From the NCBI RefSeq assembly GCF_024713975.1, contig NC_091113.1, positions 12,412,501 through 12,476,500 of the forward strand: a stretch of 64,000 nt of DNA, given 5' to 3'. Origin of the DNA: Paralichthys olivaceus (lineage: Eukaryota; Chordata; Actinopteri; Pleuronectiformes; Paralichthyidae). Position numbers and translations under genes: made by a program. Within the stretch, counting starts at the first letter, position 1; every line of letters starts with the position of its first letter. The notes under the pieces were generated by a model. That model saw only the letters and a list, made by a program, of their open reading frames with translations, did no database searches and was not told the origin of the DNA. This document shows positions 50,892-53,800 of the stretch, piece by piece.

Positions 50892-53800
50892 TCAGTGATG
50901 CTCTGCAGGGGACTTTTCAGGGGAGGTGGTCTTCTCCTCTTTTACTCCTGTCTCCTCAAGCTTAAACTTCTTAGATGAAGGTGAGGGTGAGGGAGAACGA
51001 GGTCTCTTTGTGCCCTGTGGTGCTGTGGGAAGGCTCCTTACCAGCTTCACAATTTTTTTGGTAGGCAAGACACCTGTGGTGGGGTTTTCAGGGCAGGTGG
51101 GTATCATATCTAGCTCCTTCTCCTCAGGCCTGAACTTCTTACAAGGAGTTTCTGCTGAGGGAGAACAAGATCTCTTTGTGCCCTGTGGTGCTTTGGGAGG
51201 GCTCCTTACCAGCTTCACAACTTTTTTGGTGGGCAAGACACCTGTGGTGGGGTTTTCAGGGCAGGTGGGTATCATATCTAGCTCCTTCTCCTCAGGCCTG
51301 AACTTCTTACTGGAAGTCTCTGCTGAGGGAGAACAAGATCGCTTTGTGGCCTGTGGTGCTGTGGAAGCTGGAGAAGCTTTGCTGGGCTCAGATGTTACAG
51401 AGGATTCCTGTAGAGAACAAAAAAATGTTTTAAGTAATATCTTAACACAAATAAGAATTTAGGAAATACTATGTACTTAAATGTTTTGATAAGAGTAAGA
51501 CAATTGATGCCACTCTTGCATCTGTATGATCAATATGATGCACTGCAACTAACAACTGTTACATTAGGGTTTTTACAGGGGTTATGTGCTGGATTATTTC
51601 TCTTCTGGGCACAGTAACTTCCTGGAGTCTTGATATCACTGTGTAACTCTAATATGAGAAATACTTCAGTGCATAACCCACTGTAAAAGCACAACCTGTC
51701 ATTTTTTAACTATGGTTTTTGTGAAGATTTAAAAAAATGAGATATCATTAATAACAGCAGAAAACATTGTATATATTATAGACACATGTATGTTTAGTCA
51801 AATAAAGCATGAAATGTTTGAGCAAACCTTTTCAGTTGTGTGACAGGACGACACTTTGGCACGTTTGGCAACAACCTTCCTCTTTTCATAGTTGACTAAA
51901 ACAACCATTCCCTCCTTAAACAGACCACAGCTCTTTGCCAGGTCGTAGACTGCAAGGGCACAAAATAAAAATGATTTCACATTTTCACACAACTCTGCTC
52001 CAGTGTCACCAAATTTAAAGAGGAAGAAGAGCAAGGAAACAAAAACATACCAGTATCAATAAAGTAGCCGACTTCACTGGTCAGGTCGATATCTTTCTTT
52101 TTAATTATCTTCTTGTACTCCTTTGTCAGGGTAAATCCAATCATCCACTTTGTGCTCATACCCTCTCTGAAACAGAAACAGACAACCAACACGAGACATG
52201 AGCTTTAAAGCCTTGTTACAGCAAACTGAGAGTAAATACAGAGCATCAGAACAAAAAACAGGAACGAGCTGAAATATGAAATAATGCCCTTACATGCTAT
52301 CGGGCTCCTTGGGTGGAGAGTAGGGCTGCACGTTCACATGAGCCAAGGAAATGTACGGATGTATCTGCAGAGCTCCCACCAGGAGTCTTATTTTGGACTC
52401 CACCAGGCCGACCCTGAACGAGTGAATGAAGACTTGTTTACAGAAAGAAGAAAACACTCCAGCAGCTGGATGTAAAGTATTCAAACAGTTTTTCATCCAA
52501 AGTTCAAACGTGGTCTACAAACGTGTCGAAGTTATTCCAGTTTAACTTGACTCACCAATCAATATGCTGCTCGCCTGTAGCAGAGAATGCGTCCACTTGA
52601 AGGTAATGCCTTTGATTAAAAGAGACAGATTAATCAAAACTATGTTGCGAATTCATTGCTGCTCAATATTTAAAGCAGGTCAACTTACTGCACAGCACAA
52701 TAATTAATATCACTATACTCACCTTCGTTATGTCAATTATACAGTAAACTTTAAATGTAAAAATAAAACCTGTGTTGTTTTAAAATGTAAGTGATCTGTG
52801 TTTGTGTATTTAACGCCCAAACTCCACAACACAATTTTAAAATTCTCGTCAAAAGGTGAACACAGCTGCTCACTGTGTCCATCATTTCTTCCACAACATA
52901 AATGCATCGTTACGAATATCGAGGACGCTGCCTGTTGTGGCAAAAACAACAAAAATCGATCGTACGTTCGAAGTAAAAGAGTGGAACTCAATCAATCAGG
53001 CAGCTCACATTCAGAGCTTTAACCATCCACATAACAATGAAGACATGATCATCTTTTTTTTAAAACTTTGTTACAGATTTTATTATAAATGACTAGAAAC
53101 CATCACAACCTGGTCGGCACATCCATCAACATTAGTCATGGACCGTCAGATTGAAGTTTACCTTTAAGTTCAGCATGAACATTAAAAAGGCCACAAATCC
53201 ACAAACAGATGATCCATTTCAACATTTTCAGCTAATAACACTAATCAAAACATTATTTTAGTAAATGTCTATGTTTTAGAGAGCAATGTGTGTGAGTGTA
53301 TTTAATTACATGGCAGGACTGTCTTTAGGTAACTCAATACGTACCGGTACTTGTTCATAAAGTTTGGCGTTTCAAAGAGTTTGAGCCAGTCGACTTTGTG
53401 CTGCTGTATTTCCTGGAGGATAGTGTGGCCTGTGAACGAGGAAGAGACAGGTGGTTTAAATCAAAATGTTCTCACACTCTCAGATTAAAATTCTGGGAGA
53501 TGTTATTGAGTTTAACGGTTTGTTTTAATCCACGATTGGAACACTGGAATTGATGTTTGTTTGGCTCACAATGCAGGTAGTCAGCTGAGTGACTATACAT
53601 ACCCCGATTGAACTCTTCAATCAGGATGGTCCGCGAGGAGAGAGAGACATTGAACGCTGAGTTCTGCTGGGGGTAGACCGGCGTGATGATCGGCATCAAG
53701 TGGTACCTATCATGTCTGTTAGACTGGAAATGCAGAAGAACACTGATTATCATCTTACTATATGTTTTAAACTGGATAATTCACAAACTCACTTGATCAT

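Follow-up and report, generated by a model that had tools for sequence, protein, structure and literature searches.

Structure of the poly(A) polymerase gene on C21

The window, that is, the whole stretch of 64,000 nucleotides analyzed here, corresponds to C21:12412501-12476500 of the Paralichthys olivaceus assembly (588 Mb, 25 contigs) and carries a poly(A) polymerase (PAP) gene on its minus strand. For this gene, 15 coding exons and the last exon were placed via splice sites; all 16 mapped exons have an open frame and GT/AG junctions. The protein read from the exons is 100% identical to P0001, "poly(A) polymerase type 3-like isoform X1 [Paralichthys olivaceus]"; this model and the window very likely come from the same assembly, so P0001 gives no independent support for the repeat array in the last exon. 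Downstream of the PAP gene, the window contains ERCC4 (Pfam ERCC4 domain) and a SAP-domain gene resembling MRTFB. The gene comprises the following parts:

50892..51407, minus strand: last exon (516 nt including the stop), C-terminal tail with the NLS2 array, predicted disordered (AG acceptor, open frame to the stop, AlphaFold2)
51828..51949, minus strand: penultimate coding exon (splice-site mapping)
52051-52166, 52294-52413, 52556-52609, minus strand: exons for the end of the central domain and the PAP RNA-binding domain (GT-AG; PF04928, PF04926)
53345-53429, 53603-53723, 53847-53919, minus strand: further exons of the same region (GT-AG; PF04928, PF04926)
54091-54229, 54649-54738, 54889-55000, 55095-55148, minus strand: exons for the nucleotidyltransferase and central domain (PF20750; DADID...GIEVD)
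55249-55358, 55476-55557, 55673-55739, 55926-56045, minus strand: further exons of the same region (PF20750; DADID...GIEVD)
56848..56867, minus strand: first coding exon of the public model P0001 (MFSTMEA), with a GC|G junction (N-terminus of P0001 located in the window)

From window position 57283 downwards (minus strand), an N-terminal exon resembling that of Hippoglossus P0003 (MVVVPLQG...) is also present. In an alignment by eye, the ATG start of relatives (MSDST/MSGST) seems to be CTG in the flounder (CTGTCTGAGCAG...), both here and in the second gene described below.

Bovine PAPOLA (1q78) matched the window protein with E=1.6e-156. The protein contains the domains of the PAPOLA/PAPOLG family, PAP_NTPase (PF20750, 203.9 bits), PAP_central (PF04928, 211.2 bits) and PAP_RNA-bind (PF04926, 73.1 bits), and these results, together with P0001, bear out the preliminary description of the locus as a poly(A) polymerase gene. 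The motifs DADID and GIEVD align with bovine GADID and GIEID, and D99, D101 and D153 of P0001 are invariant across 33 aligned rows; the catalytic aspartates of the bovine enzyme are D113, D115 and D167. AlphaFold2 with the 33-row alignment predicted a confident core except for residues 224-230 and most of 276-314 (chain mean pLDDT 67.5); pLDDT values below 50 were obtained for the tail (residues 487-666; ten-residue means 29-34). The window gene appears to encode a poly(A) polymerase of the PAPOLA class that evolves fast and looks functional.

A repeated NLS2-like module in the last exon

The open minus-strand frame 51407-50892 spans exactly the stretch from acceptor to stop and contains a 168-nt direct repeat (50951-51118 and 51119-51286, 90% identity). 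A 78-nt core is present three times (50951-51028, 51119-51196 and 51287-51364; the latter two 82% and 79% identical to the first), and Tandem Repeats Finder reported 50945-51364 with a period of 168, 2.5 copies, 90% matches, 0% indels and a score of 677. Both approaches and the open frame agree with the exact-period 168-bp (56-codon) in-frame duplication noticed earlier. The count of three copies holds for the NLS motifs, but only two full units exist; the third is a terminal unit with the NLS part only, 67-68% identical to units 1 and 2 over the aligned part and without the linker. Within this terminal unit, the sequence downstream of the motif resembles, by eye, the stretch behind the single copy of Limanda P0002. 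The elements of the array are:

51186..51353, minus strand: array unit 1, 56 codons (codon-register unit offsets and direct repeat)
51018..51185, minus strand: array unit 2, 56 codons, 94% identical to unit 1 (codon-register unit offsets and direct repeat)
50895..51017, minus strand: terminal unit 3, NLS part only (codon-register unit offsets)
51297..51344, minus strand: bipartite NLS2-like motif 1, KR-x10-KKFR (pattern match; coordinates by hand from unit offsets)
51129..51176, minus strand: bipartite NLS2-like motif 2, KR-x10-KKFR (pattern match; coordinates from unit offsets)
50961..51008, minus strand: bipartite NLS2-like motif 3, KR-x10-KKFK (pattern match; coordinates from unit offsets)

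The motif has the same layout in all three units, TKR-x2-SPS-x5-KKF-(R/K)-x-EE, with a uniform x5 in place of the variable x4-6 spacer first reported; the segment quoted as KTPxGTKR likewise reads differently in the actual unit letters. A pattern scan found KR-x10-KKx[KR] kept in 3/3 window units, and the tail of the window protein carries KR-x10-KKxK/R followed by acidic residues. The KK pair, which is the one that matters in mouse, is multiplied in the array. A multiplication of SUMO sites had also been proposed. Duplicated units 1 and 2 read KKFRPEE, and a psi-K-x-[DE] acceptor occurs only in the terminal unit (FKLE); since R stands in place of the acceptor K in the duplicated units, the SUMO-like site is not multiplied.

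A regular expression for the VIKNSIKLRL-type C-terminal peptide failed in the last 60 aa of P0001; the expression is crude, matching 19/34 type-3-like tails and 29/33 other rows and missing some look-alikes, e.g. P0009. The linker segment VVKLVRS was considered as a copy of the C-terminal IKLRL peptide and rejected, as it aligns better with the linker between modules 2 and 3 of other percomorphs (PTC-E-SPTGVS; by eye, unscored). A search with the tail only (171 aa) gave no match at E<=1e-3 among 1107 candidates. Candidates in the protein searches were only proteins of 0.55-1.75x the query length, and because of this restriction the PAP family was found with the full-length query.

A second gene copy carrying 12 units

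Searching the flounder's own genome at the protein level located this tail again at C21:13.028-13.031 Mb, 567 kb from the window gene. This second gene (copy 2) has 12 units within one 783-codon open frame, nine of them extra; a 354-bp period is also visible, the unit pairs u6/u8 and u7/u9 are 98% and 96% identical, and the KR-x10-KKx[KR] pattern is kept in 10/12 units (2/12 modules are broken). Of its 15 upstream exons, 14 align whole and one is truncated at the 5′ end; in exon 2, the first 17 nt and the former acceptor are missing. In our own reading, a CTGCTGCAG in matching phase is present at the junction of this exon. Introns of the two genes differ at 39/2602 aligned sites (1.5%). For the core, we obtained dN 0.0143, dS 0.042 and dN/dS 0.34 (13 silent and 16 replacement changes), and no stop codons were present in the joined core of either flounder C21 gene. 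With the conceptual copy 2 protein (1248 aa) as query, no flounder match was seen among the best 120 of 1706.

The block common to both loci is bounded (about window 50265-57422) and the flanks differ, with ERCC4 beside the window gene and a TAZ-domain CREBBP-like gene plus a Pao element beside copy 2. In L009:7534-9522, L009:2550-2987 and L011, we observed Pao-type retrotransposon frames (Peptidase_A17) and a THAP-domain ORF on one side of copy 2, and on the opposite side the TAZ-zinc-finger, CREBBP-like gene. Just downstream of copy 2 lies an extra one-unit tail-exon fragment (L010:229-420, minus strand; C21:13028280-13028387), which adjoins rearranged pieces of the window's 3′ flank.

The endings of unit 1 and unit 2 (RSPPK, RSLPT) are common to both flounder genes, the simplest explanation being that an array of units 1 and 2 plus the terminal unit predates the copying of the gene to 13.03 Mb. 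Alternatively, the endings could be shared through gene conversion between the loci.

Probable assignment to the PAPOLA class

All 21 matches of bovine PAPOLA in the flounder genome fall within three loci, namely C14:4.68 Mb and the pair of genes on C21, and the window protein found the same three. The C14 gene adjoins a Rel-homology-domain reading frame and was taken as papolg, REL being the neighbor of PAPOLG. Within papolg (L043-L045, C14:4670001-4700000, minus strand), two KRPHSP...AKR(Q/L)K motifs were noticed in two separate tail frames, and the NLS-like motif may be doubled there as separate exons.

VRK1 and AK7 are fused to PAPOLA in a bird (P0143) and a sheep (P0176) gene model, from which we infer that the amniote PAPOLA neighborhood is between AK7 and VRK1. 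Flounder matches to VRK1 and AK7 lie on C12 at 1.112-1.117 and 1.202-1.206 Mb, with the best VRK1 match there (86%), and the search with bovine PAPOLA gave no PAP match on C12; the window gene sits beside ERCC4 on C21. A second AK7-like locus was seen at C19:16.868-16.870 Mb. As no PAP was found beyond papolg and the two C21 genes, and none on C12, the window gene looks like the only PAPOLA-class gene of this flounder assembly, to which the claim of PAPOLA absence applies, copy 2 aside. The gene had been called a PAP paralogue; membership of the family stands, but the label is incomplete, because no canonical PAPOLA was found and this is probably the PAPOLA-class gene itself.

For the tree and the module scan, we took the best 120 of 2744 matches to the full protein; 73 of these, bovine PAPOLA, human PAPOLG and copy 2 made up 76 tree rows. 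Forty rows formed one type-3-like clade (100/100) on a long stem (0.26), with tips that are long for the most part; all its named species are percomorphs. The PAPOLA/beta rows of Genypterus, Myripristis and Centroberyx fall with this clade, separated from human PAPOLG by a split of 100/97; given the long branches, the exact attachment of the clade is uncertain. Of the percomorph rows in the tree (species assigned by us), Genypterus is the single one outside the fast clade; some percomorph hits, such as P0007, P0038 and P0121, are unplaced. Most simply, the window gene would be a derived PAPOLA-class gene.

Comparison with known poly(A) polymerases

An article on PAP describes NLS1 and NLS2 of mouse PAP alpha as flanking a Ser/Thr-rich region, and states that a change of NLS2 lysines 656-657 inhibits SUMO conjugation and moves the enzyme to the cytoplasm, and that bovine PAP with an inactivated bipartite NLS2 relocates (PMC10908868). 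In the primate PAPOLA P0156, the sole module found was KRTSSPHKEESPKKTK, with KK at residues 656-657. The repeated flounder module matches PAPOLA NLS2 in place and spacing, upholding the resemblance pointed out originally, and appears to be NLS2-derived. Importin-alpha reads KR-x10-12-KKxK, and one signal is what it needs.

Mammalian PAPOLA shares with the flounder protein the catalytic and RNA-binding domains, a Ser/Pro-rich tail and a KR-x10-KKxK module followed by acidic residues. In contrast, each of five scanned mammalian models (P0123, P0128, P0153, P0156, P0160) has one NLS2 module, against 3 in the window gene and 12 in copy 2, and the NLS1 KKKK half (by eye) and the VIKNSIKLRL-type C-terminal peptide are unrecognizable in the window protein. 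Percomorph type-3-like proteins such as Siniperca P0005 and Xiphias P0004 belong to the same clade (100/100), evolve fast and have several NLS2-like modules, in these two about 47-52 aa apart; yet their modules are mutually diverged, whereas in the flounder one module is freshly tandem-repeated. PAPOLG (flounder C14:4.68 Mb) is of the same enzyme family and also shows two KRPHSP-type motifs in tail frames (by eye), but it is a separate gene with a more conserved core and no tandem array seen, and human PAPOLG falls outside the window clade. Mammalian PAPOLB (TPAP, testis) is likewise a divergent PAPOLA-class relative; PAPOLB is an intronless retrocopy, whereas the window gene keeps its multi-exon structure. 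Among the open-access titles and abstract openings surveyed, there was no report of PAP NLS repeats or PAPOLA loss in fish.

Modules in fish relatives

To score modules, we derived a position matrix from 107 module windows; the threshold was the 99th percentile of the best scores obtained with shuffled tails. The type-3-like clade includes 39 database rows, and the 34 with tails ≥100 aa form the testable set. Five modules were counted in one of these tails (Notolabrus), three in 15 tails, two in 13, a single module in four and none in one (Limanda), so at least two NLS2-like modules occur in 29/34 testable percomorph relatives; the 24 non-acanthomorph rows had one module in 14 and two in 10. 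The zero score of Limanda P0002 is due to a 4-aa insertion in its module, and by eye this one informative close relative has a single imperfect copy. The Hippoglossus model P0003 ends before the tail exon and gives no copy number. Strict spacing was found in 138/209 distinct windows across species, a share that is no independent proof of the spacing, as the matrix was built from KR-x10 windows; a psi-K-x-[DE] acceptor (loose psi set) is present in 79 of the 138.

Similarity of linkers only, with the NLS motif itself excluded as driver, was examined with 200 shuffles in 179 proteins and copy 2. Seventeen of 121 successive module pairs reached the shuffle floor (11 in the two flounder genes, 3 in Centroberyx, 2 in Notolabrus, 1 in Polymixia), and the other 104 did not. 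The tandem periods were 56 aa in Paralichthys, 31 in Notolabrus, 48-52 in Centroberyx and 40 in Polymixia, and these differing periods suggest that tandem growth in the four genera would represent separate events. The triplicated NLS, initially described as unfamiliar from mammals, is thus an extreme case of what appears to be a family trend. In the proposed cross-species comparison of copy number, the percomorph relatives tested are mostly multi-module, and tandem growth occurs in four genera. The Limanda copy supports the suggestion of a recent duplication, with amplification of the array appearing recent on the flatfish scale.

Selection within the arrays

Across the 13 full units, NLS codons had pS 0.095 and pN 0.093 (ratio 0.98), and linkers pS 0.211 and pN 0.138 (ratio 0.65). 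Relative to the array consensus, we counted 83 distinct changes (56 replacement, 27 silent, 0 stop), where 2.7 stops were expected (P=0.06). All array unit lengths are multiples of three, and there is a weak hint that the reading frame of the array is kept. The ratio of nonsynonymous to synonymous changes was 2.57 in the NLS part vs. 2.66 expected, and 1.9 in linkers vs. 2.41 expected. Neither the pN/pS nor the non/syn test gave a sign of NLS-specific purifying selection within the arrays. This was the outcome of the unit dN/dS comparison suggested beforehand, and the idea that extra copies change dosage, with NLS codons at a pN/pS of about 1, finds no support from selection. Fewer silent changes in the NLS part (0.095 vs. 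0.211) could reflect local gene conversion, which would make pN/pS a blunt test.

Origin and possible role of the array

We consider it probable that the tail is an NLS2-derived array in a disordered part of a working-looking PAPOLA-class enzyme, grown by unequal exchange and with extra copies that are mostly redundant. Growth of the array would come from either replication slippage or unequal exchange. When the gene was copied to 13.03 Mb, the array would have consisted of units 1 and 2 plus the terminal unit, and it would have expanded to 12 units there. Each intact KR-x10-KKxR copy may bind importin-alpha; if every one can, the protein would need about one and the rest would be redundant. 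Copy number would then drift, near neutral, in a flexible tail under weak constraint. With the NLS1 KKKK half and the C-terminal peptide unrecognizable, reliance on the NLS2 modules may be high.

More NLS2 copies could instead mean faster or stronger import (or more CDK/SUMO regulation), selected after the loss of canonical PAPOLA. Such selection would fit the high share of type-3-like proteins with multi-module tails (29/34), the tandem growth found in Paralichthys, Notolabrus, Centroberyx and Polymixia, and the result that canonical PAPOLA was not found in the assembly. We nevertheless demoted this idea and regard it as unlikely, since the selection tests gave no NLS-specific constraint: NLS codons in the flounder arrays are at the neutral expectation. 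Moreover, 104/121 successive pairs are without linker similarity at the test floor, so fresh tandem growth is exceptional, importin-alpha needs a single signal, and the amplified units do not retain the psi-K-x-E site. At the other extreme, the tail or the whole gene may be relaxed or pseudogenic and the arrays do nothing. Copy-to-copy dN (0.0143) equals intron divergence (0.0150), copy 2 exon 2 is without its first 17 nt and acceptor, no flounder copy 2 protein appears among the best 120 of 1706 matches, and CTG seemingly stands where relatives have ATG in the N-terminal exon (by eye). Yet dN/dS between the copies is 0.34, neither joined core has stops, the catalytic positions are conserved, the window gene has a public model labeled as an isoform, and we found no further PAPOLA-class gene that could take its place, which makes decay quite improbable.

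A mis-assembled repeat or second gene would be conceivable as the data come from one assembly and long tandem arrays can be mis-sized; given the near identity of u6/u8 and u7/u9, the exact unit count of copy 2 could be off. However, divergence within the window array is 6% between units 1 and 2 and about 32% for unit 3, and the two genes are 1.5% apart in introns, with different flanks and a bounded shared block; an artefact is therefore very hard to credit. Going beyond the redundant NLS2-derived array that we favor, a bolder and rather improbable proposal is that percomorphs such as the flounder lost canonical PAPOLA, and that nuclear polyadenylation is carried out by PAPOLG and a PAPOLA-class enzyme that evolves rapidly, with its nuclear import set by an NLS2 array of variable length, a repeat-number dial (3 to 12 copies) differing between genes, species and perhaps individuals.

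New here are the near-identical second gene with 12 units, the finding that modules are multiple in most testable percomorph relatives, with tandem growth of whole units in four genera, and the restriction of bovine PAPOLA matches to papolg and the two C21 genes, with VRK1 and AK7 on C12 away from any PAP match. If the array consists of stacked import signals, these homologous enzymes would offer a natural series with 1, 2, 3, 5 and 12 copies of one NLS, in which the effect of signal number on import and regulation could be tested. With canonical PAPOLA apparently absent from a flounder assembly at chromosome scale, fish would be suited for testing how far PAPOLG can stand in for a core enzyme of gene expression, and what drives the fast evolution of the PAPOLA-class gene that is left.
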